DNA from: Lentisphaerota bacterium
GTDB lineage: Bacteria; Verrucomicrobiota; Lentisphaeria; Victivallales; Victivallaceae
Reading direction: 5' to 3'
DNA: 41,881 nt
Assembly (NCBI GenBank): GCA_015061775.1
Contig: SUVY01000017.1
Location: 1-41,881 of the forward strand
Below, one piece after another: positions 4,489 through 18,909 of the stretch. Each line of letters begins with the position of its first letter. Position 1 is the first letter of the stretch. The notes beneath the pieces are model-generated. The model did no database searches and was not told where the DNA came from. It worked only from the letters and a program-made list of their open reading frames with translations. A program made the position numbers and the translations under genes.

Positions 4489-5220
4489 ATGTCAGACGTG
4501 AAAACCGCATTGATAATCGGTGCCACCCGCGGCATCGGCAGGGAGTGCGCCCTGCGGCTCGCTCAGGACGGGTTTGATATAGTCGGCACCTGCCGCAGCA
4601 ACCCGGAACGTTTCAGTGAACTTGAGACCGTAATAAAGTCATGCGGCAGAAAATTTGATGCGCTCGCTTTCGATATAGCTGACCGCAAGGCGGCGGAGGA
4701 TGCCCTCTGCGGATTTTTCGGCGACGGAGCTCCGGATGTGGTCGTTTACAATGCCGGAATACGCGACGATGAGATATTCGCCTTCATGACTCCGGAGCAA
4801 TGGGATAAAGTCCTCAATACCAACACGGGAGGCTTCTTCAACTGTATCCATCCGCTGATCGGCAATATGATAAGCCGCAAAAACGGCAGGATCATTGTGA
4901 TATCCAGTATTTCCGGACAGACCGGACAGCCGGGACAGGTAAACTACTCTGCCTCCAAGGCTGCGCTGCTCGGAGCAGTCAAGGCTCTCGCCAAAGAGGT
5001 GGCGCGCAAAAAGATACTGGTCAACGCGGTCACTCCGGGATTTATTGCTACTGATATGACTGAGAGCATGGATCTCGACCAGATAAAGAACCTTATTCCG
5101 ATGCGCCGCACAGGTACTCCGCGCGAAGTCGCAGGAGCGGTCTCGTTCCTCGCCGGTGAGGACAGCTCTTATATCACCGGGCAGGTCATCCCGGTCAACG
5201 GAGGTCTGTTTATCGGATGA
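4489..5220 (+). CDS. 3-oxoacyl-ACP reductase (FabG-like SDR, ApeQ-type)
   Basis: A 243-aa short-chain dehydrogenase/reductase of standard FabG length. It has the NAD(P) glycine motif GATRGIG (11-17), NAG (88-90), the catalytic S140-Y153-K157 triad (YSASK) and the C-terminal 'GQVIPVNGG' (231-239). It would reduce the beta-keto group of ACP-bound intermediates in the cytoplasm. It is the first gene of the APE-like operon, with AGGAGA 9 nt upstream of ATG, and it overlaps the next gene by 4 nt. Aryl-polyene clusters carry one such ketoreductase (ApeQ). Operon membership points to this role rather than housekeeping FabG, but sequence alone does not separate them. Confidence 0.9.
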   Translation: MSDVKTALIIGATRGIGRECALRLAQDGFDIVGTCRSNPERFSELETVIKSCGRKFDALAFDIADRKAAEDALCGFFGDGAPDVVVYNAGIRDDEIFAFMTPEQWDKVLNTNTGGFFNCIHPLIGNMISRKNGRIIVISSISGQTGQPGQVNYSASKAALLGAVKALAKEVARKKILVNAVTPGFIATDMTESMDLDQIKNLIPMRRTGTPREVAGAVSFLAGEDSSYITGQVIPVNGGLFIG

Positions 5221-6719
5221 TGGGCTGTTTTGACTATGTGATACTCGGCAGCGGCATAAGCGGTATGACCCTGGCGATCCTGCTCGGCTCCGCCGGAGCA
5301 AAAGTAGCGGTGATCGAAAAGGCAAACGCTTTTGGCGGAGCTATGCAGCGTTTCCGCCGCGAAGGGGTTCCGCTGGATACCGGGTTCCACTTTACGGGAG
5401 GCATATCCGACTGCTTCGGAGATATGCTCGATGTGCTGGGCATCAGAAGTGATATCAGCGCAGTTCCCGTGAAACAGTCGGTTTTTTTCTGTGACAGCAA
5501 AGAGAAACTGGATATTCCCGCGGGAATAAATGAGCTTGAGGCGTTTCTCATCGGGCGTTTCCCGGAGCAGAAAGCAGGAATCACCGCCTACTTTGAGGCG
5601 GAACGCCGGGTTTTTGAAGCTACTCCGCTCTTTCACCTCAGGGGGGCAGGGGCGTTTTACTCCGGGCTTCCGGATATCGAAGAGGATCATATAACGCTCG
5701 CCGAGTTCCTCGACCGGCACGGAATTTGCGGAAAACTGCGCGGAATACTCTGCGCCGCTGCTTCATGTTACGGAACGGCTCCGTCAGAAGTGTCGTTCGC
5801 CAACCATGCGCGGATACACTATGGATTATGCAATGACCCGTTCCGCCTGAAAGATGGCGGAAATGCGGTAGTCAAAGCCTTTCTGCGCCGCGCAGATGAG
5901 CTCGGTATAGCCGCCATCAAAGGAACGACCGTCGCCAGCTGGGGAGAGTGCGACGAAAAGAACAGAATATACTCTGCCGTCCTCGGAAACGGCGAAACAA
6001 TAGAGTTCAAAAATCTTATTTTTACCCAGCACCCCGCCGAAGTTTTGCGTCTGCTTCCGCAGGAAAAGGTGCGCCCCTCGCTCAGAGAACGGGTCGCGGA
6101 GCTCGAAGATACCTGCGGCTTTTTCACCTGGTACGCGCTCTATGAGGGAGACAGTGACGAGTTTTCCGAGGAGCTTTGTTCGACGCTTACTACTCCTGAT
6201 CTCGACCGCATACTTTCAGGCAGATATCCGGAGGAACGCACCACGGGATTTGTTCTGTCGCGCGAAGTGAAAAGCGATGGCAGTGCGTGCTGCTGCGTGA
6301 CAGGTTTCCAGAGTGCTTTCGCAGAGGAGACTGCAAGTTGGAACAACTCTCTCTGCGGCAGGCGCGGAGCTGATTATGCCGATTACAAGAGGAAAAAATC
6401 TCAGGAGCTCGAGGATATCATCTGCCGCGTGCACCCGTATCTCAAAGGAAAACTCCGGACGATCTGCACTTCGTCTCTTCTGACGTTCAGAGATTACCTC
6501 AGCTCAACGGGCTCAGCCTACGGAGTCCGTCAGAAGGTCGGTCAGATAAACCTCTTCGGCAGACTTCCTGTACGCAACTTTTATACGGCAAGCCAGAGCT
6601 CGATACTTCCCGGAGCGGTGGGGTCGATGCTTACTGCGCTTGTGCTTTTCCGCGAACTCGCCGGAGAAGAGGCTTACGGCAGACTGCTGTTTGAAACTTT
6701 GGGGAACAAGCCGGTATGA
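5217..6719 (+). CDS. FAD-dependent oxidoreductase, phytoene desaturase/retinol saturase-like
   Basis: A 500-aa flavoprotein with an N-terminal Rossmann motif 'ILGSGISGMTLAILLGSAGA' (about 9-28), a downstream 'VIEKANAFGGAMQ' stretch, and a C-terminal 'ASQSSILPGAVGSM' segment typical of the second FAD-binding motif of the CrtI/CrtISO superfamily. Such enzymes desaturate, isomerise or saturate conjugated polyenes. It overlaps the ketoreductase gene by 4 nt (ATGA) and the first ketosynthase by 4 nt, so it belongs firmly to the operon. I do not recall it as a core gene of described E. coli- or Vibrio-type APE clusters. It may tailor the polyene (isomerisation or extra desaturation). Substrate unknown. 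Confidence 0.82.
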   Translation: MMGCFDYVILGSGISGMTLAILLGSAGAKVAVIEKANAFGGAMQRFRREGVPLDTGFHFTGGISDCFGDMLDVLGIRSDISAVPVKQSVFFCDSKEKLDIPAGINELEAFLIGRFPEQKAGITAYFEAERRVFEATPLFHLRGAGAFYSGLPDIEEDHITLAEFLDRHGICGKLRGILCAAASCYGTAPSEVSFANHARIHYGLCNDPFRLKDGGNAVVKAFLRRADELGIAAIKGTTVASWGECDEKNRIYSAVLGNGETIEFKNLIFTQHPAEVLRLLPQEKVRPSLRERVAELEDTCGFFTWYALYEGDSDEFSEELCSTLTTPDLDRILSGRYPEERTTGFVLSREVKSDGSACCCVTGFQSAFAEETASWNNSLCGRRGADYADYKRKKSQELEDIICRVHPYLKGKLRTICTSSLLTFRDYLSSTGSAYGVRQKVGQINLFGRLPVRNFYTASQSSILPGAVGSMLTALVLFRELAGEEAYGRLLFETLGNKPV

Positions 6720-7933
6720 ACAGAAATCAGCGTCGTGTGGTCATAACCGGTATCGGAGTCGTTTCCGCTCTCGGAAACACTCCTGACACTCTCTTTGCCA
6801 ACCTGCTCGCCGGAAAAAGCGCGGTGAGGATGATGGCGGATTGGCCCCATCCGGCTTTGGCGGCTCCGCTTGCGGAACTGCCTGAGGCGGCAGATATTCC
6901 GCGCTCCATGCGGCGCACGATGGGCAATGTCGCACTCTACTGTGCGGCGGCGGGCAAAGCGGCGGCTCAGCATGCCGGGATCACGGAGTTTCCCGATGGA
7001 CGCACACTCTGTGCGGCGGGCTCCACGATGGGGTCGTCTCTGGTCTTTGAGGAGACTTTCAATACCCTTCTGCTCGGGAAAGGAATGGCGGATGTCTCGC
7101 CCATGAACTTCTTTAAATGCGCCTCGCATACCGCAGCTTACAATATGGCAAACGTGCTCGGAATTGATGCTATGACTTACTCTCCGGCGGCGGCGTGCGC
7201 CTCGGGACTGCAGGCTGTCGGACTTGCCGCAACGCTTATTGCCGCAGGAGAAGCCGATGTCGCAGTTTCCGGAGGAAGTGAAGAGTTGAGTCACATGGTG
7301 TCCGAGAGCTTCGTCCTCATGGATGCCCATGCCTCAGTCCTTGCGGGAGAAGCGGTTCAGGAGCAGCCGCGTCCGTTCGACTCGGCGAGGCGCGGACTCG
7401 TCTGCGGAGAGGGCGCAGCTGTCTTTGTGCTCGAAGAGTATGAACATGCCAAAGGGCGCGGAGCCGATATCCTCGCCGAAATATCAGGTTACGCCACCAA
7501 CCGCGGCAGAGAAAATGTCACCCAGTCCGACAGCGGCTCAGTCATAAAGTGTTTTGAACTTTTGCGCGGGAAATGCGATATTCCTCCGCTTGAACAGGGG
7601 TTCATAAACGCCCATGCCACAGGAACTCTTCAGGGAGACCGCTCCGAAGCTGAGGCGGTGAGACGATTTTTCGGAGGCAATATCCCCGTGAGCTCCCTCA
7701 AGGGCAACATCGGACACACACTCGGAGCCGCAGGTTCGATAGAACTTGCCGTCTCTGTTGAAATGTTGCGGCGCAATATCATCCTGCCCACCGCAAATTT
7801 GTGCTCTCCTGCCGCGGAGTGCTCAGGAATAGACCACGTTTCTGCTGCGCGTGAAAAAAAATGCAGCTTCTTTATAAAAAACTCCTTTGCATTCGGCGGA
7901 ATAAATGCCGTTATGATGTGCAGGAAGATTTGA
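6716..7933 (+). CDS. Beta-ketoacyl-ACP synthase (FabF-like), KS1
   Basis: A 405-aa thiolase-fold condensing enzyme of full KASII length, with an intact Cys-His-His site: C161 in 'AAACASG', H300 in 'NAHATGT' and H334 in 'KGNIGHTLGAAG' with K329. The N-terminal 'VVITGIGVVSALG' and C-terminal 'NSFAFGGINAV' are also canonical. It would condense malonyl-ACP with the growing ACP-bound chain. It is one of three catalytically complete ketosynthases in the operon and sits directly upstream of the ACP gene. Its ATG overlaps the preceding stop. Confidence 0.92.
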   Translation: MNRNQRRVVITGIGVVSALGNTPDTLFANLLAGKSAVRMMADWPHPALAAPLAELPEAADIPRSMRRTMGNVALYCAAAGKAAAQHAGITEFPDGRTLCAAGSTMGSSLVFEETFNTLLLGKGMADVSPMNFFKCASHTAAYNMANVLGIDAMTYSPAAACASGLQAVGLAATLIAAGEADVAVSGGSEELSHMVSESFVLMDAHASVLAGEAVQEQPRPFDSARRGLVCGEGAAVFVLEEYEHAKGRGADILAEISGYATNRGRENVTQSDSGSVIKCFELLRGKCDIPPLEQGFINAHATGTLQGDRSEAEAVRRFFGGNIPVSSLKGNIGHTLGAAGSIELAVSVEMLRRNIILPTANLCSPAAECSGIDHVSAAREKKCSFFIKNSFAFGGINAVMMCRKI

Positions 7934-7971
7934 TATCAGTAAAAACAATTACCAACAGAAAGGATAATACC

Positions 7972-8226
7972 ATGACCAGAGAAGAGATCATCGAAATCGT
8001 AAATGCCGCTTTTGCCGAACTGGAAATTCCCGAAGAGGAGCTGACTCCTGAAGCCCAGTTCTTCACCGACCTCGGACTCGACAGCCTCGATATGGTGGAT
8101 GTCGTCATCAGTCTCCAGCGCAAGTTCGGAGTCCAGCTCCGCGGCAATGAGGAGATCAAAAAGGTGCGCTGTCTCAACGACCTCTACGATTTCTTCGTCA
8201 AAATCGACGCCGAAAAGAATAAGTAA
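7972..8226 (+). CDS. Acyl carrier protein
   Basis: An 84-aa acidic protein with the phosphopantetheine attachment motif 'LGLDSLDMVD', modified serine S38. I start at ATG 7972, preceded by AAAGGA at 7-8 nt. The open frame extends further left, but only into the 3' end of the ketosynthase gene. As the only ACP in the operon it should carry every chain intermediate. Described APE clusters usually carry two ACPs (ApeE and ApeF), so either this one does both jobs or a second is encoded elsewhere. Confidence 0.93.
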   Translation: MTREEIIEIVNAAFAELEIPEEELTPEAQFFTDLGLDSLDMVDVVISLQRKFGVQLRGNEEIKKVRCLNDLYDFFVKIDAEKNK

Positions 8227-8250
8227 GGGGTCACTCCGGAGTCCGCTTTT

Positions 8251-9009
8251 ATGGTGTCTTTTATCGTCTATACCCGTATGCTGGTGCTCGGGGTGCTCTA
8301 TACCGTTCCGGCAGTGCTGTTCGTATTGATATATGCCTTTTTTGTGCTGTTCAATACCGTGAAAGTGCGCCGGATGATGCGGTTGATAATCCTCGGGTTC
8401 GGCAAGCTGATGGTGCGCGTCGCCATCGCTCCGTATGTCAAAGTCATCACGGAGTATGAGGACCATAAAGAGACTCCGCAAGTAGCCATTTACATCTGCA
8501 ACCACCGCTCGGCGTCGGATGCGTTTCTGGTATCCACGGTGAAGACGGTGGTTCCGGCGTTTCAGGTGATGAAGGGGTGGCCGATGAAACTGCCGGTTCT
8601 CGGATTGTGCGCGAAGGTGGCGGGATATTTCCCCGTCACAGAGCAGTCCTTCGAGGAGACCTGCCGGAAGAGCAGAGAGCTCCTGCTCGGAGAACAGGCC
8701 CCCGTATTCATCTATCCGGAGGGCACGCGCTCTGGCAACCGCTCGATCAATCAATTTCACGGAACGTTTTTCCGCATCGCAAAAGAGCTCGCTCTGCCGA
8801 TAGTTCCAGTGGCGATCGCGGGCAATGAGAATATTCCTGACTTGAAATTCCGCATCCGGCGCGGTACAGTGATGGTGAAGGTGCTCAAAGCAATTCCCGC
8901 TGAGACCGTCTGCGGAATGTCGCTGTATGCCCTCAAAAACATGGTGAGGAACCGCCTCGCCGAAGAGACCAGGCTCATGGATGAAAGGTTGGATGGCAAT
9001 GATGCTTGA
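8251..9009 (+). CDS. 1-acylglycerol-3-phosphate O-acyltransferase-like (PlsC family)
   Basis: A 252-aa LPLAT-family protein with the catalytic H-x4-D motif 'NHRSASD' (H85, D90), the acceptor motif 'YPEGTRSG' (155-162) and 'LPIVPVAI' downstream. An N-terminal hydrophobic helix (about 9-36) should anchor it in the inner membrane. In APE clusters an acyltransferase of this type (ApeD-like) is thought to place the polyene or a fatty acid onto a lipid anchor. It follows the ACP gene by 24 nt and overlaps the next start. Confidence 0.88.
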   Translation: MVSFIVYTRMLVLGVLYTVPAVLFVLIYAFFVLFNTVKVRRMMRLIILGFGKLMVRVAIAPYVKVITEYEDHKETPQVAIYICNHRSASDAFLVSTVKTVVPAFQVMKGWPMKLPVLGLCAKVAGYFPVTEQSFEETCRKSRELLLGEQAPVFIYPEGTRSGNRSINQFHGTFFRIAKELALPIVPVAIAGNENIPDLKFRIRRGTVMVKVLKAIPAETVCGMSLYALKNMVRNRLAEETRLMDERLDGNDA

Positions 9010-10294
9010 GGAACAATTTATTTACCGTCCCGAGTGCGAAAAGCTTACTGCTGATGAGATCAATTGTTTGCAGGAAAAACTTTTGCGGTGCCAGCTTGAG
9101 TGGTGCAAAAAGAATTCTCCATACTACTCAAAGGTGCTCGCTCGTGTGGATACCGGGCGCTTCCGGCTTTCAGAGCTCGGAAGTTTGCCCTTTACCAGCA
9201 AAAGCAGCGTGTCCGAAGACCCCGACGCCTTTATCTGCGTTCCCGGCAGGGATATCGGAGAAGTCGTCTTCACTTCGGGAACGACCGGAACTCCGTGCAA
9301 GATCGTTTACTCCAACAACGATATGCAGCGTCTGCGCTACAATGAACAGCGTTCTTTCACCGCTGCCGGAGTGAACGCCGATGATATCGTTCTGCTCACC
9401 TGCACCGGAGACCGCTGCTTTATTGCAGGTATGGCGTATTATCTCGGTGCAAGAAGCGTCGGCGCAGCCGCGGTACGCAACGGACTCAACTCCATAGACA
9501 GTCACCTCGATATATTGAGGACGCTCCACCCCACTGTGATCGTCGGAGTTCCCTCGTTTCTCAAACATCTGGGCGAAGCCGCTTCGCGCGCCGGTCTTTG
9601 CGGCTCAGTAAGAAAACTTATGTGTATCGGTGAACCTGTCCGCGACAGAGAGTTCAAGCTCGCAGGTCTCGGCAGGCAGATCGCCGACCTCTGGGGAGCT
9701 GAAGTGCACTCCACTTACGCGTCTTCTGAAATCGTCAGCAGTTTCTGTGAGTGCGAAGCGTTCAACGGAGGACATCTGCTTCCGGATCTTGTCATTCCTG
9801 AAATCGTCGATGAAGAGGGCAATGTCCTGCCTTACGGAGAGGTCGGAGAGCTCGTTCTTACCCAGCTCAACGCTCAGGCTATGCCGCTTATCAGATTCAG
9901 GACAGGTGACATATCTTTCCTCGTAAACGAACCCTGCCGGTGCGGAAGAGCTTCTCTGCGTCTCGGCCCCATCCTCGGCAGAAAGAGCCAGCTGCTCAAG
10001 TGCAAGGGCACGTCGATATATCCGCAGGGAATTTACAATATTCTCTCCACCTTTGCCGGAGTGGAAGACTTTTATATGGAAGTATCCGGAGAAGACCTCT
10101 CAGACCGCATAGATATATTTGCCGCCCTTTCCGATGAACAGGTTGAGCTCTCTGAGCTCGAGCGTCTGCTGCGCGCCCATTGCAGGATGAGCGTTCCTGT
10201 CCATATCGTTCCGGCGCAGCAGGTCAGGGCGCGGGTCTTCGGAACCAGCCGCAAGCCGGTGAGATTTTTTGATTTGAGAAAGAAAAGTATATAG
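8999..10294 (+). CDS. AMP-dependent ligase, PaaK (phenylacetate-CoA ligase)-like
   Basis: A 431-aa adenylate-forming enzyme of the PaaK/CoF390-synthetase family. It has the phosphate-binding loop 'TSGTTGTP' (92-99), 'YASSE' (240-244), 'RTGD' (301-304), and the PaaK-type 'CRCGR' (313-317) followed by 'GRKSQLLKCKGTSIYP'. I start at ATG 8999 inside the 3' end of the acyltransferase gene; ATG 8981 or 9002 are alternatives. In this context it should activate an aromatic carboxylic acid as AMP ester and load it on CoA or ACP, the role of the ApeH ligase. The starter acid cannot be deduced. Described APE ligases are not all of the PaaK branch. Confidence 0.87.
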   Translation: MMLEEQFIYRPECEKLTADEINCLQEKLLRCQLEWCKKNSPYYSKVLARVDTGRFRLSELGSLPFTSKSSVSEDPDAFICVPGRDIGEVVFTSGTTGTPCKIVYSNNDMQRLRYNEQRSFTAAGVNADDIVLLTCTGDRCFIAGMAYYLGARSVGAAAVRNGLNSIDSHLDILRTLHPTVIVGVPSFLKHLGEAASRAGLCGSVRKLMCIGEPVRDREFKLAGLGRQIADLWGAEVHSTYASSEIVSSFCECEAFNGGHLLPDLVIPEIVDEEGNVLPYGEVGELVLTQLNAQAMPLIRFRTGDISFLVNEPCRCGRASLRLGPILGRKSQLLKCKGTSIYPQGIYNILSTFAGVEDFYMEVSGEDLSDRIDIFAALSDEQVELSELERLLRAHCRMSVPVHIVPAQQVRARVFGTSRKPVRFFDLRKKSI

Positions 10295-10297
10295 ATC

Positions 10298-11590
10298 ATG
10301 GAAGAGTTTGCTGTTAAAAATTTTACTTTTCAGGATATCAAAGAAGCGGCTCCGGCAGACAGGATACTCTTTGCCTATATCGAGCCCGCTGAGGAAAAAA
10401 CAGCGTTTGAGCTTGAGGATATCATAGCCGACTCCGTAAAACTCGGAGCGGAAAAGATCGTCTTTCTCTGCCGCGGATATGTTGATATTGAACTTGTGAC
10501 CGGAGCTTGCCGTAAATGCCGCGAGCTTGAGGCTGCTCCAGAATTGCGCTGTGCCGGAGATCTGGTCACTCCGGAACTTGCCGCATGGTGTTCCGAAAAC
10601 AAAGTCGCGGTCACCGTGGAGTGCGGCACTCTGAGTGAGGCGGCTCGCGCGGCGGAGCTCCTGAAAAATCTGCCGGCCCGCGCGGTCTCTTTTGCCGTTT
10701 TTCCTGTTGGAAAAAAGTTGGATGACTTCGCGGAGACCTGGAGCTTTGTCAAAAGCTCTGCCTACCGCGCCGAGACCGCCTGCTTCGACCGCAACGGAGA
10801 GCTTGCTGAGCTTGATTTTGACCAATGGGAATATATCAATGAGCTCAACGGCAACGGTACTCCTGAGTGTCTCCGGCAGCTTGTTTCTGTGATGATATCC
10901 CGCTCCGGAGAGGTTTACCCCTGTCCAGGTATGGCGATGCCGCTCGGAAGGCTTGGGGATAAATCGCTCGAAGAGATCGTGCTCGGAGCAAAATATCTTG
11001 AACTGCTCAGAGCTCACCCCAAACGTCTTAAAACTCCCTGCGCGGAGTGCAGTTCTGCGGATGTCTGCTGCGGGTGCCGCGCCAGAGCCTACAAGGCGAC
11101 CGGAGATTATCTTGCCGCCGATCCGGGATGTTTCCGCAACCGGGGAAAACTTGATCTTATCCCCTCGCTGCCCATTTCGTCGGCAGGTATGCTTCCGCAC
11201 GCTTCGCGGATGCTGCTCATCGACCGCATAGTGTATCTCAGTGAGACAAGTTCGGTGCATGAGGCTGTGGTGCGGGATGACAACCCGTTCCTCAACGCCG
11301 ATGGAGTGCTCGAACGCAGCGCGCTTCCGGAATACGCAGCTCAGGCTGCCGCTCTCAGGGACAGCGTGGAAAAAGGCGGAAAACCCTCTCCGGGACTGTT
11401 GAGCGAGGTGCAGAAGGGCAGTTTTTACGGACAGGTGAGAGCGGGGGACATCCTTAAAATCACGGTAAGTACAGATTTCCACATGGATATCTGGTATTGT
11501 ATAGCTTTTAAAATAGAGTGCAACGGTTCTGTTGTTGCCGATGGAGTGCTGAAATTATGTGTTTACGACGAAACTCCGCTGCCATATTGA
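10298..11590 (+). CDS. SPASM domain fused to an ApeP-like hot-dog dehydratase
   Basis: One uninterrupted 430-aa frame with two parts. Residues about 1-285 resemble a degenerate radical-SAM barrel ending in a complete SPASM domain: C191-x12-G-x4-C209, then C248-x2-C251-x5-C257-x2-C260 and C278, enough for two auxiliary 4Fe-4S clusters. The radical-SAM C-x3-C-x2-C motif is absent; only an unrelated C71-x2-C74 occurs. Residues about 295-430 are an ApeP-type dehydratase ('MLPHASRMLLIDRIV', 'LPEYAAQAAAL') with E345 at the hot-dog catalytic acid position. The usual catalytic-loop His position (about 329-331) reads NPF. The gene lies 3 nt after the ligase gene and overlaps the LolA-like gene. The role of the SPASM part is unknown. 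Confidence 0.85.
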   Translation: MEEFAVKNFTFQDIKEAAPADRILFAYIEPAEEKTAFELEDIIADSVKLGAEKIVFLCRGYVDIELVTGACRKCRELEAAPELRCAGDLVTPELAAWCSENKVAVTVECGTLSEAARAAELLKNLPARAVSFAVFPVGKKLDDFAETWSFVKSSAYRAETACFDRNGELAELDFDQWEYINELNGNGTPECLRQLVSVMISRSGEVYPCPGMAMPLGRLGDKSLEEIVLGAKYLELLRAHPKRLKTPCAECSSADVCCGCRARAYKATGDYLAADPGCFRNRGKLDLIPSLPISSAGMLPHASRMLLIDRIVYLSETSSVHEAVVRDDNPFLNADGVLERSALPEYAAQAAALRDSVEKGGKPSPGLLSEVQKGSFYGQVRAGDILKITVSTDFHMDIWYCIAFKIECNGSVVADGVLKLCVYDETPLPY

Positions 11591-12183
11591 TTTTGTCTCT
11601 GATTTCCGTACTTCCGCTTTCTGCGGGGGAGCTGCTGGATAAAATATCTGCCAATATGGGGAGTATCCGCAGTATAAAGAGCGATTTCAGGCAGGAAAAA
11701 ACTCTCAAGTCATTCGGATTTCCGCTGGTCATCACCGGAGTCATGTGTGCCGATCACGCGAAAAACCTCTTTGCGTGGCACGTTAAGAGCCCGATGGTGT
11801 ATAGTTGTATAATATCCGCGGACAAACTCACCCAATGGGATTCCGATACCGGAAAAACCGTCGAGGTGTCAGTCTCGCGCAACCCCGCACTCAAACTGCT
11901 CTCGGAGACACTCAGCACCCTCTTTGCCGGAAATTTCCCCAAACTGCTCACCAGTTTCGAGGTGACAAAGGAGGCAAATCCGCTTGAACTTGTTCCGCGT
12001 TCAGGCAGCGCAGCGGCGGGGTTTATCAGCGGTATAGCTTTCAAATTTACCGATGATCTCTCGCAGATAAAGGAGATCACCATGAACGAAAAGAGCGGAG
12101 ATGTGACCAGAATAAGCTTTTCCAACAGTCAGCTCAACGCTCCGATAGAGAACTTCTGGTGGAAGGCGGAACAGGGCAAATGA
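11557..12183 (+). CDS. LolA-like periplasmic lipoprotein/lipid carrier
   Basis: A 208-aa protein with a Sec signal peptide (hydrophobic core about 8-21, cleavage near residue 24) followed by a LolA-like beta sheet fold: 'KISANMGSIRSIKSDFRQEK', 'WHVKSP', 'ITQW'-type 'LTQWDSDTG' and the C-terminal 'NAPIENFWW'. I choose ATG 11557, since the longer frame from 11518 would put a hydrophilic stretch before the signal. It overlaps the fusion gene by 34 nt. APE clusters encode a LolA homologue (ApeL-like) thought to ferry the polyene lipid across the periplasm. The housekeeping LolA role is less likely because no lolCDE genes are near. Confidence 0.82.
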   Translation: MCLRRNSAAILILSLISVLPLSAGELLDKISANMGSIRSIKSDFRQEKTLKSFGFPLVITGVMCADHAKNLFAWHVKSPMVYSCIISADKLTQWDSDTGKTVEVSVSRNPALKLLSETLSTLFAGNFPKLLTSFEVTKEANPLELVPRSGSAAAGFISGIAFKFTDDLSQIKEITMNEKSGDVTRISFSNSQLNAPIENFWWKAEQGK

Positions 12184-14480
12184 CCAGACTCCTGCGCCGT
12201 ATGCTCTTTTTCATCCTGCGCCGCCCGGTGATCTGCGCGGCGGCGGTACTGCTCGCCTGCTGTTCGGCGGTCATCATGGCGAAGGCGGATTTCAGGAACG
12301 ATATCGCTACGATGCTTCCGGATGGTTCTCAGTCGCAGAGGACGCTCCGCAAGGTCAACGCAAGCTCGATGTTCAATAAGGCGATGCTGCTCTTTACCGC
12401 AAAAGAGCCCGGAGCGTTTTCCTCGGAAAAATTTGCTTCAAGTCTCGATACTCTTGCTTCAGAGCTGTCCTCAAAAAGTGAGATAGTAAGGGTCGATCAC
12501 CGGCTTTTCAGCAGCAGAGAGGGGCTCGGAACGCGCTCGCTTGTCCGCTATGCGGTGCAGTTGTCAACTCCGGAAGTGCTGGGCGACCCTGAAGAGCTGC
12601 CGCGCAAAGTCATGCGCGAACTCTGTATGATCCAGTCCATCGGAAGAACTGCCCAGCTGAGAGAGGACCCCGCAGGGATATCCCGCGTCGTATTCAATAA
12701 GCTCAACCGTTTCCGAAAAGTATCCGGAATGACGACCGCTCTTGACAGCAGCTTTATCGAGACCGCCGACCACAAAAATCTGCTCGTTCTCACGGAGACC
12801 ATGCTTCCTGTATCCGACCCGGCGTCAGGGAAAAAACTTGTTCCGCTCTTTGAAGAGGCGGTGAAAAAGGCGGCATTTCCGGCAAACGTGGAGTGCGAGG
12901 TCATCCTTCCGCACAAGCGCGCCATGGCGAATGAGAGTGTGGTCAAGCGCGACGTGAACCTCGCTATGGTGATGACCGCGGTGCTCTTCTGCCTTATAAT
13001 GGTGTTTTTCTACCGCAGAGACTTGCGAAGTTTTCTTATTCCGGCGATACCGGTCGCGGGCTCTCTCGTAAGCGGAGCTCTGCTGGTGCTGATATTTGAC
13101 GCTCCGCAGCTCTTTGTCGTCGGTCTCGGAGGAGTGGTCATCAGCATCGCCATCGACTACGGTATCCACATATACAGCGCGATGAACAGCCGCTATCCGT
13201 ACCGTACTGTCGCGGAGGTGCTTCCGTCGCTCTTCGCCGGTATGATAACCAGTTTTGCCGCCTTCTTCATGTTCGTCTTTTCGGATATGCAGGGAGTCCG
13301 CCAGTTGGGATTTTATGCCGCAAGTTCGCTGCTGTTTACCCTGTTTTTTATGCTGGCAATACTTCCGGCGGCTCTGGCGAAACGCAATCTTGCTCCGGTC
13401 GTGCAGCTCGACAGACTGAGATCGCTCCTTCCGTCAGGAAGATATGCCGTCGGAATTTTTCTCGTTGCGGCGGCAGCGGCGGCGGCTTCGCTCGGATTTC
13501 TGCGCTTCAAGACGGATGTGCGGCAGTATGATATGTCTCCGGAAAGCTATGATCTTGCTGAGGCGAAGGTGGCGAAACTCTTCGGAGGAAACTCTGCCAT
13601 AGCCGTTTTTGACGGCAGGACTCCCGATGAAGCGTTGCAGAACTCTGCTCAGGCGGCGGGGAAAGAGGGGATATTTTCAGCTGCTGAGCTCTTCCCTCCG
13701 GCAGAAGAGTGCAGGAAAAATCTCGGGGCATGGAGAGACTTCGATCTGGACGGATACGCCCGGAAACTGCGTGCCGCTGCGAAAAAGATGAATTTTCCTG
13801 ATGGTTTTTTCGATGGGTTCATCGCGGATATCCAGACCGCGCGTCAGGGAGATGTCTCCGTTCCGGATCTGCTGAAACACGTGCGGCAGAGAATGCTCGT
13901 CAAGGGCTCGGACGGTTTGTGGTATGCTTCTGCGATATATCGGGAGTCTCCGGAAAACAGTGCGCTCCTGAGCCGTCTTGACCATTGTACTGTGGTGTCA
14001 GGAAAACATCTGCCCAAAGTCATGGCTCAGGATATCATGCGCTCAATCGTTCCCTGCGGAGCTGCCGCCGTCGCCGCCGTGCTGCTGATAACCTGGTGCT
14101 TTTTCGGAAAATTTCTCTCTGCCCTCAAAGCCGTAACTCCGGTTGCCGCAGCTCTGCTTCTTACTTGCGGAGTATATTCCGTTTGCGGCAAAGGGGTGAA
14201 TATTCCTGTGATGGCGGCTCTGGTCATCCTCTGCGGACTTGCGGTCGATTACGGAGTGTTTGTGCTCCATGCGATCGAAACCGGCAGGGAAAAGCTGATA
14301 TTCCACTCCGTGACGCTCTCCGCCGTGACCACGCTCGCCGGAGGCCTCACCGTGGCTTTCGCACGTCACCCGATGCTGAGCGATGCCGGAATTACCCTGA
14401 TAATCGGAATAATCTTCGCCTGGGCGTCCTCTGTGTGGCTGCTTCCTGAACTGGTCAAATCAGGGAGGACAAAACGATGA
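12180..14480 (+). CDS. MMPL/RND-family exporter
   Basis: A 766-aa inner-membrane protein with the MMPL layout: TM1 (about 10-33), a large periplasmic loop, a six-helix bundle, a second periplasmic loop, and a further bundle. Both bundles carry the proton-relay motif: 'SIAIDYGIH' with D326 and 'GLAVDYGVF' with D690. I start at ATG 12180, which overlaps the upstream stop as ATGA, rather than at the longer frame from 12159. APE clusters carry such an exporter (ApeM-like) to move the lipid-linked polyene from the inner membrane. Its neighbours, a LolA-like carrier and a lipoprotein, would hand the product onward. Confidence 0.9.
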   Translation: MTRLLRRMLFFILRRPVICAAAVLLACCSAVIMAKADFRNDIATMLPDGSQSQRTLRKVNASSMFNKAMLLFTAKEPGAFSSEKFASSLDTLASELSSKSEIVRVDHRLFSSREGLGTRSLVRYAVQLSTPEVLGDPEELPRKVMRELCMIQSIGRTAQLREDPAGISRVVFNKLNRFRKVSGMTTALDSSFIETADHKNLLVLTETMLPVSDPASGKKLVPLFEEAVKKAAFPANVECEVILPHKRAMANESVVKRDVNLAMVMTAVLFCLIMVFFYRRDLRSFLIPAIPVAGSLVSGALLVLIFDAPQLFVVGLGGVVISIAIDYGIHIYSAMNSRYPYRTVAEVLPSLFAGMITSFAAFFMFVFSDMQGVRQLGFYAASSLLFTLFFMLAILPAALAKRNLAPVVQLDRLRSLLPSGRYAVGIFLVAAAAAAASLGFLRFKTDVRQYDMSPESYDLAEAKVAKLFGGNSAIAVFDGRTPDEALQNSAQAAGKEGIFSAAELFPPAEECRKNLGAWRDFDLDGYARKLRAAAKKMNFPDGFFDGFIADIQTARQGDVSVPDLLKHVRQRMLVKGSDGLWYASAIYRESPENSALLSRLDHCTVVSGKHLPKVMAQDIMRSIVPCGAAAVAAVLLITWCFFGKFLSALKAVTPVAAALLLTCGVYSVCGKGVNIPVMAALVILCGLAVDYGVFVLHAIETGREKLIFHSVTLSAVTTLAGGLTVAFARHPMLSDAGITLIIGIIFAWASSVWLLPELVKSGRTKR

Positions 14481-15169
14481 ATACCGCGATAAGGCTCTTA
14501 TTTGCTGTTTCCGCCGCAGGAGTCCTGCTCATCTCTTCTTCGTGCCGGAGTTATCCCTTTGAGTTTGCCGATATGTGTGAATTTCCGGAAGGAACTGAGC
14601 CGGTCATCTGCCGCAAAGCTGCTCCGTCAGGCTATCTGGTGCAGGCGAATATGGTGATGGAAAATATCTTCTTCTCCTTTTCCGGAATAATGATGCTCAG
14701 AAAACAGGGCGAAAATCTCTCGCTTGCGGTGATGCTTCCGGCGGGAGCCAAGGTGCTCGAAGCAAGCGGCAAAGCCGGAGTTCCGGAAAAGTGGTACTTC
14801 ATGCCCGGTATGCTTCCGGAGAATATAGAGCAGGAAAAGGTCGCCGCTATGCTGCTCAGGGATATGGCAAATATTTTCGGAGACGGCTCGTTTGTCTATC
14901 GCGGAAAAACTCCGGGCACCGAAGAGAGATACTCTTCAGGCGGGCTTGAAACAAATCACCCCGCGACCGGTGAAAAACGGCTCTACGGCTCGGAAAAGTG
15001 GAGACTGATGAGAAAATCTGCAAAAAACCGCAGTTGCGATTGGCAATCTTGCTATTTCAGATGTATTGTAAATGACGGTTGGCTGTATCCTGACCAAATT
15101 GTTTATGACAATAACGTTGAGAGATACCGGATAGTTTTGAGAGTTCAGGGTTTTCAGGTGGATGAATAA
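14477..15169 (+). CDS. Predicted lipoprotein of the APE-like operon
   Basis: A 230-aa protein with an N-terminal signal ending in 'LISSSC' (C23), an SSSC-type lipobox as often seen in Bacteroidetes and relatives. The rest is a mostly beta domain without a recognised motif. It overlaps the exporter gene by 4 nt (ATGA) and the next gene by 1 nt. Position after LolA and MMPL matches the DUF3261-like lipoprotein of known APE clusters (ApeN-like), so it probably helps insert product at the outer membrane. Family membership is inferred from context, not from motifs. Confidence 0.75.
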   Translation: MNTAIRLLFAVSAAGVLLISSSCRSYPFEFADMCEFPEGTEPVICRKAAPSGYLVQANMVMENIFFSFSGIMMLRKQGENLSLAVMLPAGAKVLEASGKAGVPEKWYFMPGMLPENIEQEKVAAMLLRDMANIFGDGSFVYRGKTPGTEERYSSGGLETNHPATGEKRLYGSEKWRLMRKSAKNRSCDWQSCYFRCIVNDGWLYPDQIVYDNNVERYRIVLRVQGFQVDE

Positions 15170-15546
15170 TGGATTTTTTAAGTGAAGCAAGAGACGCCAT
15201 GCGCGTTGAAAAACGCGGTGAAGGCGAGTTTACGGTCTATCTGACGCTGCATGAAAATATGACTCCTTTTGAGGGACATTTTCCGGACTTCAAGATACTT
15301 CCCGGAGTGGGGCAGATATCGCTGGTCTCATGCGCGGTACGCAAGATATTCGGAGATACCCTGCTGCTCCACTCATCCGGCAGAGTGAAATTCACCAATC
15401 CCGCCCTTCCGGGGGCTCAGCTTGAAATAAATATCAAAGTTGCCTCATGTCAGGAAGGCAAGCTGAATATCCAGGCGGTCATCACTTCGCAGGATAAACA
15501 GATATCTTCGATGAGGCTCGGTTTTGAAGGAGCGCATGATCTGTGA
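15169..15546 (+). CDS. ApeI/FabZ-like 3-hydroxyacyl-ACP dehydratase subunit
   Basis: A 125-aa single hot-dog domain with the FabZ-like loop 'FEGHFPDFKILPGVGQISLV' (34-53). The catalytic histidine H37 is present, but the glutamate expected 14 residues later is S51. A lone FabZ needs both. The ApeP-like domain of the 10298-11590 fusion has the acid (E345) and lacks the histidine. I infer that the two proteins pair into one composite dehydratase, in line with the ApeI/ApeP pair of known APE systems. It would remove water from 3-hydroxyacyl-ACP to build the conjugated chain. Stop and start overlap the GTG of the next gene. Confidence 0.85.
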   Translation: MDFLSEARDAMRVEKRGEGEFTVYLTLHENMTPFEGHFPDFKILPGVGQISLVSCAVRKIFGDTLLLHSSGRVKFTNPALPGAQLEINIKVASCQEGKLNIQAVITSQDKQISSMRLGFEGAHDL

Positions 15547-16025
15547 AACGCCGCAGCCGTTATCAGTTTTTTGAGCGTATCGAAGGAGCTCCTGAGCCGC
15601 TGAGCGCGACCGTCAGGCGCAAATTGCAGTTCCATGAGATGGACCCCGCAAACATCGCCTGGCACGGGCAGTACCCCGCGTTCTTTGAACAGGCTCAGGC
15701 GGAGCTGGGGAAAATTTGCGGTCTCACTTATCCCAAATTGCGCGAAGCAGGAATAATCGCTCCGGTGCGCCAGTTCCATGCTGAATATTTCCAGGTGCTC
15801 TCTTTCGATGAAGAGTTCACCGTCACCGCGAGTCTCATCTGGAGCGAGGGCGCGCGCGTCAACATCGAGTATCTGATAAAGAAAACCGACGGTTCCATCG
15901 CCGGAGCAGGCTACACCGTTCAGCTTTTTATGGACCCGGCGTCCGGAGAGGCTCTGCTCGCAGACCCCGAGTTCTGGGCTGACTTCAAGACGCGCTGGCA
16001 GAACGGGGAGTTTTCCAGCCGATGA
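15543..16025 (+). CDS. Acyl-CoA/ACP thioesterase, 4HBT hot-dog (ApeK-like)
   Basis: A 160-aa hot-dog protein of the 4-hydroxybenzoyl-CoA thioesterase type: 'RKLQFHEMDPANIAWHGQYPAFF' (26-48) with the family Asp at D34 and H41. The start is GTG 15543, overlapping the upstream TGA (GTGA), since no ATG lies nearby in frame. In APE clusters a small thioesterase (ApeK-like) is thought to release or proofread chains stalled on the ACP. It overlaps the next ketosynthase gene by 4 nt. Confidence 0.86.
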   Translation: MKRRSRYQFFERIEGAPEPLSATVRRKLQFHEMDPANIAWHGQYPAFFEQAQAELGKICGLTYPKLREAGIIAPVRQFHAEYFQVLSFDEEFTVTASLIWSEGARVNIEYLIKKTDGSIAGAGYTVQLFMDPASGEALLADPEFWADFKTRWQNGEFSSR

Positions 16026-17143
16026 ATTATTCAGCTGATGACATCGTGATCGTCCATTGCGATATATTCACCTGTTTCGGAGCAGGGATCGAGCCGGCAT
16101 GGGAGGCTTTGAAGCAGAACCGTCACGGATTTGTTCCGCTTGCCCGGCGCATAGATACTGAGAGTTTGAGCTCCTGTTACGGGGCACTCGCTCCGGAGCT
16201 CGATAAGGTGAATTCTCCATCTGATTATCTGCTCGACTATGCGGCGCGCTCTGCGGCAAAGTTTTCCTCTGACCGCACCGCTCTCTGGGTGGGAACGACG
16301 GTGGGCGAGATAGAGTATCTCCACAACCCTGAAAGACGCTGCACCTCGGACTCCCTGCTCGAAAAGGCGGCGGAAAAGTTCAATATAGCCGACGCCCGCT
16401 GCCTCTCTGCCGCCTGTGCGTCATCCAATATGTCGCTCTGCCGCGCAGGAGCAGCTCTGCGCGCTCACAAATGCGACTGCGCCGTGGTGTATGCGGTGGA
16501 TTTCGTAAGCGAATTTACCGCTTCGGGATTTCTTACCTTGAAAGCCATGACCACCGGAAACTGTGCGCGGCCCTACGATAAACAGCGTTCCGGAATCCTG
16601 CTCGGCGACGGTGCCGGCGTCGTGGTGATGACCCGCGCAGAGACCGCCCGCAAAATGGGGTATGAGGTGCTCGCAAAAGTTTCTGCATGGGGAATGTCCT
16701 GCGATGCCGGACACATAACTTCTCCGCAGGAGGACGGCAATTTCCTCGCCGAAGCCGGACGCAAAATGCTCGAACGAGCCCGCGTGTTTCCGGAAGACGT
16801 CGGTGCCGTCATCGGTCACGGAACGGGTACTTATCACAATGATATAATGGAGATCAAGGCGTTGAAAAAACTCTTTTTTCGCCCGGTTCCGCTCTTTTCC
16901 ACCAAAGGCTCCACGGGGCACACTCTCGCCGCCGCGGGAGTGATGCAGACCGCCGCCGCCGTGATGATGCTCAAAGAGCGCGTCATACCTCCGCAAACTT
17001 CGATCAGCGACCCGGAAGAGGGGGCGCAGGAGATGGTTTCTGACCGCATCCGCACTCTGGATAAACCGCGCATCATCGCTATGAATGCCGGGTTCGGAGG
17101 CTTGAACGCCGCTTTGCTTTATGAAGGAGCGGCTCTCTCATGA
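16022..17143 (+). CDS. Beta-ketoacyl synthase, KS2
   Basis: A 373-aa ketosynthase, about 30 residues shorter than KASII. It has C132 in 'SAACASS', H266 in 'IGHGTGT' and H300 in 'KGSTGHTLAAAG' with K295, so the condensing site is complete. It diverges in the N-terminal third ('VHCDIFTCFGAG' in place of the usual TG-rich start), suggesting a specialised partner or substrate. It follows the thioesterase gene and overlaps the CLF-GT2 gene by 4 nt. Which KS does initiation and which elongation cannot be told from sequence alone. Confidence 0.9.
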   Translation: MNYSADDIVIVHCDIFTCFGAGIEPAWEALKQNRHGFVPLARRIDTESLSSCYGALAPELDKVNSPSDYLLDYAARSAAKFSSDRTALWVGTTVGEIEYLHNPERRCTSDSLLEKAAEKFNIADARCLSAACASSNMSLCRAGAALRAHKCDCAVVYAVDFVSEFTASGFLTLKAMTTGNCARPYDKQRSGILLGDGAGVVVMTRAETARKMGYEVLAKVSAWGMSCDAGHITSPQEDGNFLAEAGRKMLERARVFPEDVGAVIGHGTGTYHNDIMEIKALKKLFFRPVPLFSTKGSTGHTLAAAGVMQTAAAVMMLKERVIPPQTSISDPEEGAQEMVSDRIRTLDKPRIIAMNAGFGGLNAALLYEGAALS

Positions 17144-18909
17144 AACGGAATTTGACCATCTCAGGAGCTGTTATGCTCAAAAATTTCCGCCTCGATTCGG
17201 CGCGGCGCGGGCTTATGTTGGAAAAAGAGTCTCCGGCAGAGCTGCTCAAGGAGCTCAAAGCCGTTGAGGGCGTTCCCGATACCGACTGCTCAAATTTCCG
17301 GCGCGGAAGCGTGAAGGTCAAAGAGCATCTCATCGCCGCGACTGCTCTTTTATACGATGCGCGCATCTCAGGAAACGACAAGAGCTCCGTCCTCTGCTGC
17401 AGCCGCTGCGGAAGCCATCAGCAGAACCTCGACTACTTTCAGGACTATGTCGATTTCGGCAGAGTTTCGGGCAGGGGACACCTCTTTGTTGCAACGATAC
17501 CGACGACTCCGATGTGCGAGGCGGCGATCTCGATAGGTGCTCACGGCCCCGCGTACTACCTCGATACGGCAGATGATTTTGATATGTTTTACGATGACGC
17601 TGAGCTGCTTCTTGAGGAGGATGGAGAGATTCCGGGAGTCGCCGCTTTCTTCGATTTTCCCGACTGTCTCTACGGAATATATTTTACCCGCGGAACGTCG
17701 GAGTGGGAGAAAAATATCCATCCGGGAAAGTTGTTTGAGATGACTGCTCCTGAGCTGTCAAGCTGTGTCGTTATCCCGGTTTACAACAACTCTTCCACAG
17801 TGCGCGATGTGGTGGAACGCTCTTTGCGCGTCACTCAAAACGTTCTGGTCATCGACGACGGCTCGACCGATGCCGATTTGCGACTTCTGCTCGCCGATAC
17901 CGGAGCCGAAGTCGTGCGCCATGAACACAATCAGGGCAAGGGCGCGGCTCTGATTACGGCGTTGAAACTGCTTTCTCAACGCAATATAGATTACATGATC
18001 TCTCTCGACGGAGATGGTCAGCATTACCCTGAGGATATTCCCGTCATGCTCCGCGAGCTCGGAAAACAGGAGGGTGCGCTTCTGGTCGGATGCCGCGATT
18101 TCAATGATCCCAACGTTCCGGGGTCGAGCAGGTTCGGACGGAAGTTTTCCAACTTCTGGATGGGCGTTGAGACCGGATGCGATGTCGATGACTGCCAGAG
18201 CGGTTTCCGTGCTTACCCCGTGAAGTATGTCTCTCATCTCAAGTGTCTTTCGCGCTTCTACAATTTCGAGACCGAGATACTCACCCGCAGCGCATGGGCA
18301 AATCTGCCGGTGGTGAACGTGCCGATAAGATCGTATTACCCTCCGCAGGGGGAGCGGATATCCCACTTCAGACCGTTCGTGGATAACTTCCGGATATCCT
18401 GCGTCCACACTCTGCTGGTACTGCGCCGTTTGATGCCGATACCGCACCGCAAACTGATTGCTCCGCCGCCCTTTGACTGGAAGAAGCTTTCTCCGCGCAA
18501 TGTCTGGAAATATCTCGTGAGCGAAAACTCCACCCCGGGAGCTCTCGCCGCCGCCGCCGGCGTCGGAACCCTGCTCGCGGTGCTTCCGCTGCTGGGGCTC
18601 CACGGAGTTGTGATCCTCTATGCCGCGGCAAGGCTGCACCTGAACAAACTTATGGCATTCAATATCCAGCATATCTTTATGCCTCCTTTGACTCCGTTTC
18701 TCTGCATCGAGCTCGGACATTATCTGCGGCATGGCAGATTTCTCACCGAGTTCACCATGCAGACGCTTTTCGAGCAGGGAGTTTCAAGGATAGCTGAGTG
18801 GCTGCTCGGAAGTCTGGTGCTTGCTCCGGTCTTTGCCGTCATCACCTCGTGCATCGTATATTTTACCGCCCTTGCGGTACAATGTTTACGGCGGAGGGCG
18901 CGGGCATGA
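17140..18909 (+). CDS. Fusion of CLF-like KS domain, GT2 glycosyltransferase and DUF2062
   Basis: A single 589-aa frame. Residues about 60-165 resemble the N-terminal ketosynthase-like domain of chain-length-factor proteins ('SSVLCCSRCGS', 'LFVATIPTTPMCEAAI', 'GAHGPAYYLDTADD') without the catalytic Cys-His-His set. Residues 208-430 are a GT2 (GT-A) glycosyltransferase with 'VIPVYNNSS', 'IDDGSTD' (238-244) and the metal-binding 'DGD' (290-292). Residues about 460-585 are a DUF2062 membrane domain ('TPGALAAAAGVGTLLAVLPLL' region, helices about 468-500, 510-528, 555-580). It overlaps both neighbours by 4 nt. It probably glycosylates or transfers a sugar to the polyene anchor at the inner membrane. 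Known APE clusters instead fuse GT2 to an acyltransferase. Confidence 0.85.
   Translation: MKRNLTISGAVMLKNFRLDSARRGLMLEKESPAELLKELKAVEGVPDTDCSNFRRGSVKVKEHLIAATALLYDARISGNDKSSVLCCSRCGSHQQNLDYFQDYVDFGRVSGRGHLFVATIPTTPMCEAAISIGAHGPAYYLDTADDFDMFYDDAELLLEEDGEIPGVAAFFDFPDCLYGIYFTRGTSEWEKNIHPGKLFEMTAPELSSCVVIPVYNNSSTVRDVVERSLRVTQNVLVIDDGSTDADLRLLLADTGAEVVRHEHNQGKGAALITALKLLSQRNIDYMISLDGDGQHYPEDIPVMLRELGKQEGALLVGCRDFNDPNVPGSSRFGRKFSNFWMGVETGCDVDDCQSGFRAYPVKYVSHLKCLSRFYNFETEILTRSAWANLPVVNVPIRSYYPPQGERISHFRPFVDNFRISCVHTLLVLRRLMPIPHRKLIAPPPFDWKKLSPRNVWKYLVSENSTPGALAAAAGVGTLLAVLPLLGLHGVVILYAAARLHLNKLMAFNIQHIFMPPLTPFLCIELGHYLRHGRFLTEFTMQTLFEQGVSRIAEWLLGSLVLAPVFAVITSCIVYFTALAVQCLRRRARA

Follow-up and report, generated by a model that had tools for sequence, protein, structure and literature searches.

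Within a 41,881-nucleotide stretch of a Lentisphaerota genome (contig SUVY01000017.1; hereafter the window), we found a 430-residue fusion protein (P0001; positions 10298–11590, + strand, ATG start) that joins a pseudo-radical-SAM half-barrel, a SPASM domain and an ApeP-type hotdog domain. We judge it rather probable that P0001 serves as the ApeP half of a two-subunit (composite) ApeI+ApeP dehydratase, built on an Fe-S-bearing pseudo-radical-SAM scaffold and encoded in an aryl-polyene/flexirubin-like operon. Its relatives with an intact radical-SAM part make up an apparently undescribed rSAM-SPASM-ApeP fusion family, found in a conserved FlxY-type polyene operon of many phyla. On the phylogeny of this family, the SAM-less state is a derived exception that was reached repeatedly.

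Architecture of the fusion protein

The open reading frame of P0001 is intact over its 430 codons and shows an in-frame coding signal across all three segments. It comprises a degenerate (β/α)6 half-barrel (residues 1–190; 10298–10867, +), the SPASM domain (residues 191–285; 10868–11152, +) and the ApeP-type hotdog domain (residues 286–430; 11153–11587, +). Profile searches matched Pfam SPASM to residues 191–251 (E = 4.4e-7), the NCBIfam AhbD C-terminus to residues 189–279 (E = 1.8e-17) and NCBIfam FabZ to residues 298–419 (E = 4.6e-5). The AlphaFold2 model, computed from a 61-row alignment (pLDDT 89.9, pTM 0.86), has the same order: a six-unit half-barrel of alternating strands and helices (strands at residues 25–28, 53–58, 80–86, 104–109, 130–134 and 157–160), then SPASM, then the hotdog. 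When residues 1–290 were modelled alone, the best solved-structure matches found by Foldseek were PqqE and SuiB, so the model supports a radical-SAM/SPASM fold in the region where a preliminary description of this DNA had suspected one. The full-length model matches FabZ enzymes and 6qsr_B, the ApeP of the ApeI:ApeP complex.

No Pfam Radical_SAM match was obtained for P0001, and the CX3CX2C motif is absent from the whole ORF, as previously noted from the sequence. The alignment places an in-frame junction at E29/P30 (10382–10387, +); the CNxxCPYCY (CX3CX2C) segment found at this point in intact homologues is deleted here. Furthermore, the GGEP of the intact family reads CRGY in P0001, and 11 of the family's 38 near-invariant barrel residues are kept. 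With the CX3CX2C segment deleted and GGEP lost, P0001 should not cleave SAM and, judged by the missing SAM [4Fe-4S] motif, is not a member of the radical SAM superfamily as an active enzyme. By descent it does belong to this superfamily, given an intact sister protein (L021), the half-barrel model and the structural matches to PqqE and SuiB. L021 carries CNYHCSYC and is 45% identical to P0001 over the SPASM-ApeP portion; it is the nearest relative, and no close orthologue was found. Together with 78 intact fusions (see below), this sister supports the proposal that a radical-SAM ancestor lost its SAM cluster while tethered to polyene synthesis.

The SPASM domain and its predicted clusters

All seven SPASM cysteines of P0001 are present at the positions first reported (Cys191, 209, 248, 251, 257, 260 and 278), and the scores for PF13186 (30.5 bits; cut-off 21.5) and TIGR04085 (33.6; cut-off 27) both exceed their cut-offs. 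By cysteine count and spacing and by its Pfam score, P0001 is a SPASM protein. Its last five cysteines form CX2CX5CX2CX17C, a motif unchanged in 86/86 sampled family members and identical to that of AhbD (PMC10452713). For Methanosarcina barkeri AhbD, the proposed ligands are C223, C256, C274 and C324 for AuxI and C312, C315, C321 and C342 for AuxII (PMC10452713). The two upstream SPASM cysteines lie 18 residues apart in P0001 and AhbD alike. Based on this shared spacing, homology to AhbD would assign C248, C251, C257 and C278 to a four-Cys AuxII and C191, C209 and C260 to a three-Cys AuxI in P0001. A fourth AuxI cysteine is not conserved (79 of 86 members have none 21–40 residues upstream), so that AuxI probably has an open site throughout the fusion family.

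A Glu-only dehydratase half and its predicted ApeI partner

The hotdog domain of P0001 keeps Glu345 (11330–11332), and the equivalent Glu is invariant among the sampled members (86/86). At E-14, where FabZ has its catalytic His, P0001 has Phe331 (11288–11290); this residue is never His in the 86 members and is mostly Phe. For the FabZ catalytic pair we assume the positions of Escherichia coli FabZ H54/E68. Having no His 14 residues before the Glu, the P0001 hotdog is not, as far as its residues tell, a self-sufficient dehydratase of the FabZ kind. The initial reading as a dehydratase domain with a catalytic Glu thus holds for the Glu itself, but the half is probably not self-sufficient. Rather, it is probably a Glu-only ApeP half needing ApeI. 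In line with this, 6qsr_B is the best dehydratase and family-level PDB sequence match for the hotdog (E = 1e-12) and ranks second in Foldseek, behind a FabZ; among solved structures, the hotdog is most like ApeP.

The predicted partner is an ApeI-like dehydratase encoded downstream (15169–15546, +), in which His37 (GHFP, 15277–15279) is kept and Ser51 (15319–15321) replaces the Glu. Among 51 ApeI-like proteins of these operons, the GHF His occurs in all (43 by pattern, 8 by reading the sequences), and the Glu position is mostly taken by Gln, Ser or another residue. A minority keeps the Glu, so His/Glu complementarity is not absolute. ApeI and ApeP are reported to form a heterodimer that acts as a dehydratase through one active site (PMC8041823). 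By analogy, Glu345 of P0001 and His37 of ApeI may be complementary halves of one active site in a predicted heterodimer. At another locus in the window's order (L227), ApeP-like and ApeI-like hotdog domains occur within one protein (9748–10551, +), located between an ammonia-lyase-like gene (8152–9735; FlxY beside it) and KS2. The same order also contains stand-alone ApeP-type proteins devoid of SPASM, which implies that SPASM is not required by every ApeP.

A conserved polyene operon

P0001 is embedded in a tightly packed operon on the + strand. Upstream lie genes for a 3-oxoacyl-ACP reductase (FabG/ApeQ-like; 4489–5220), a FAD-dependent CrtI/CrtD-like oxidoreductase (FADox; 5217–6719), a β-ketoacyl-ACP synthase (KS1; 6716–7933), an acyl carrier protein (ACP; 7972–8226, its start inferred inside ORF 7861–8226) and a PlsC-type acyltransferase (8251–9009). 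These are followed by a FlxY-type aryl/acyl ligase (AMP-binding; 8981–10294), which directly precedes P0001 with a gap of 3 bp. Downstream are a LolA-like lipid/lipoprotein carrier (11518–12183, whose true start may be downstream of the ORF start), an RND/MMPL-type exporter (12159–14480), a putative lipoprotein with no Pfam family (14477–15169), the ApeI-like dehydratase, a 4HBT thioesterase (15543–16025), a second β-ketoacyl synthase (KS2; 16022–17143) and a glycosyltransferase plus DUF2062 (17140–18909). The order FabG-FADox-KS-ACP-PlsC-FlxY-FUSION-LolA-RND-(lipoprotein)-ApeI-TE-KS-GT is conserved across phyla, with the ACP read from the window, as it did not show in the multi-locus scan. 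Among the 60 loci spanning 12 kb or more, FlxY was present in 56, LolA in 56, RND in 55, ApeI in 43 and FADox in 40. Wherever flanks were readable, nearly all intact fusions occupied the same operon position. A search for DNA-level relatives of the window locus on plasmids found none.

ApeP in this operon type is usually fused to a radical-SAM/SPASM module, whose radical-SAM site has decayed in the window genome. If our preferred reading is correct, a starter would be loaded by FlxY, β-hydroxyacyl-ACP would be made by KS and FabG, and the aryl-polyene β-hydroxyacyl-ACP intermediates would be dehydrated by His37 of ApeI together with Glu345 of P0001. In P0001, the half-barrel would persist as a scaffold and SPASM would still bind Fe-S.

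Distribution of the fusion family

We sampled the family through genus and order searches, a GTDB contig scan (best 80 of 346 candidate stretches) and a phylum sample; for L093 and L076, coverage of their phyla came from the GTDB contig scan alone. This yielded at least 90 distinct family proteins, from which four contig-edge ones (L046, L080, L129 and L066) were dropped, leaving 86. The great majority (78/86) are intact, with CX3CX2C (typically CNYRCPYC), a full-length barrel, 7/7 SPASM cysteines and the hotdog, at about 480 residues. According to record labels, members occur in Lentisphaerota (including Victivallis vadensis and Oligosphaera ethanolica), Nitrospirota, Geobacteraceae (Geobacter), other Thermodesulfobacteriota, Omnitrophota, Kiritimatiellota, Myxococcota, Verrucomicrobiota, Planctomycetota and Deferribacterota. 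Looking for the same fusion in other genomes, as the preliminary description had suggested, thus revealed intact members across many phyla. Its impression of an undescribed layout agrees with the open-access literature, in which we found no published description, but the layout is not peculiar to the window genome. As a side observation, locus L104 of genome G134, which belongs to the same taxonomic family as the window genome, matches L029, the intact fusion of V. vadensis DSM 14823, in score and length.

Repeated loss of the SAM site

Including the window copy, eight of the 86 sampled members are degenerate, having a lost or truncated SAM domain. The others are L062 and L120 (Lentisphaeria), L117 of genome G074 (window's order), L092 (rumen Kiritimatiellae), L093 (Desulfococcaceae), L076 (Planctomycetota) and L090 (Desulfobacula), the last of which retains CRFNCSFC and has a truncated barrel. 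On a tree of the SPASM-plus-hotdog portion, the degenerate label requires six changes, five of them forced by well-supported branches; for several degenerate rows, branches are long and the position is uncertain. A sequencing or assembly error as the cause of the SAM-less ORF was ruled out by several separate in-frame deletions, by the strong codon signal and by the independent SAM-less copies in other genomes.

The residues that are near-invariant in the 78 intact members were kept very unevenly in the eight degenerate ones: 56/56 for SPASM cysteines, 150/192 for other SPASM positions, 80/304 for the barrel and 62/64 for the hotdog. Even L092 (321-residue ORF), in which most of the barrel is gone, has all seven SPASM cysteines, and its relative L140 (312-residue ORF) keeps them as well, as read by eye. 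This retention argues for selection on the cluster site and is silent on the cluster's job, with the caveat that conservation may simply run higher at cysteines than elsewhere in a protein. Since the iron-sulfur domain was always kept through at least five losses of the SAM engine, the SPASM domain of the fusion probably has a job of its own.

The sister of the window copy on the tree is the intact L021 (support 99/94). As the window copy groups with L021 and not with the intact fusions of congeneric genomes (L002, L008, L009 and L010), it is doubtful that it was simply inherited vertically within the genus, which suggests horizontal transfer or differential paralogue loss.

Three genomes with SAM-less fusions (G074, G534 and G536) additionally encode, on another contig, a stand-alone intact rSAM-SPASM protein without a hotdog: L201 (2239–3528, +; G074), L199 (2846–3922, +) and L200 (3475–4758, −). 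L201 falls within the fusion tree; support for the positions of L199 and L200 is weak.

Possible roles of the SAM-free SPASM domain

For the SPASM domain of P0001, we prefer a role in structure or in ACP/partner docking and consider an electron relay less likely. Accordingly unlikely in our estimate is the reading of SPASM as a SAM-independent redox module of the polyene dehydratase, released from radical-SAM chemistry repeatedly and, for example, passing on electrons from the CrtI-like FADox or gating the dehydratase through its redox state. Such a module would fit the total retention of SPASM cysteines in every degenerate lineage and the proposed function of the AhbD auxiliary clusters as electron carriers (PMC10452713), but cysteine retention is equally expected if the clusters merely hold the fold. 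Similarly, FADox adjoins the degenerate copies L062, L076, L090 and that of the window, yet it is equally present beside intact copies.

The long window branch (1.42) is compatible with partial relaxation of constraint and counts against the scaffold reading that we favor. Together with the loss of most near-invariant barrel residues, it would be expected if the N-terminal part were a decaying remnant, the gene being kept for ApeP only and SPASM to be lost next. We nonetheless rate this as quite improbable, because the seven SPASM cysteines are found in 8/8 degenerate members after at least five independent losses, the half-barrel is modelled confidently and the coding signal over the barrel segment is strong. 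An in-trans source of radical SAM activity, in the form of a separate rSAM-SPASM protein, with the fusion split into two specialized genes, would account for the same-family paralogues of G074, G534 and G536 and for the nesting of L201. It is very improbable for P0001, as no hidden intact paralogue was found in the window genome (98.4% complete; its next best rSAM protein is 23–24% identical) and no such partner was seen in the genomes of L062, L120, L090, L093 and L076, some of which are incomplete. That P0001 still uses SAM via an altered cluster site or non-Cys ligands, as its retained half-barrel fold might invite, is scarcely credible with the CX3CX2C loop deleted and GGEP changed to CRGY.

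Relation to known systems

SPASM proteins apart from radical SAM enzymes, and ApeP itself, are already known kinds. P0001 shares its hotdog and an operon with an ApeI-like partner with the ApeP of Xenorhabdus doucetiae (6qsr_B), but the latter is a stand-alone 180-residue hotdog chain, whereas the hotdog of P0001 is the C-terminal part of a (pseudo-)rSAM-SPASM fusion. AhbD heme synthase (TIGR04545), the best NCBIfam match, has an identical CX2CX5CX2CX17C motif; it differs from P0001 in that it catalyses radical SAM chemistry and has CX3CX2C; the M. barkeri enzyme also has an eighth SPASM cysteine, for which the fusion family has no conserved counterpart. Weak matches over the SPASM segment were obtained for a pseudo-SAM/SPASM protein (TIGR04347), the GeoRSP SPASM protein (TIGR04304) and grasp-with-spasm (TIGR04193), which are, going by their NCBIfam names, SPASM proteins distinct from radical SAM enzymes. 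The scores of P0001 are far below every one of these equivalog cut-offs, and no name among them mentions a hotdog fusion or a polyene operon. The FlxY-like ligase of the window likewise scores below the cut-off of the FlxY flexirubin ligase model (NF053551; 394 versus 520).

We found no published account of an rSAM-SPASM-ApeP fusion or of repeated SAM-site loss in the open-access literature, most subscription papers being outside this scope. In the degenerate fusions, nature has run the same experiment at least five times: the radical-SAM part disappeared, and all SPASM cysteines and the dehydratase remained. What the auxiliary clusters do is thereby set apart from SAM chemistry, a standing question in SPASM enzymology, and SAM-free SPASM proteins become available for study. 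The intact members point to a radical-SAM enzyme, apparently undescribed, that is widespread among bacterial lineages, most of them uncultured, and is physically linked to polyene synthesis.

The FASII clusters of anammox bacteria contain radical SAM and phytoene-desaturase-like genes (PMC2649909) and, like the window operon, combine KS, ACP, a CrtI-like FADox and radical SAM; in the literature passages and searches covered, no description of a radical-SAM-dehydratase fusion in flexirubin or anammox clusters was found. This operon, including an intact fusion (L038), also occurs in a metagenome-assembled genome with the label Candidatus Brocadiaceae, which is of possible relevance to anammox-type FASII clusters.
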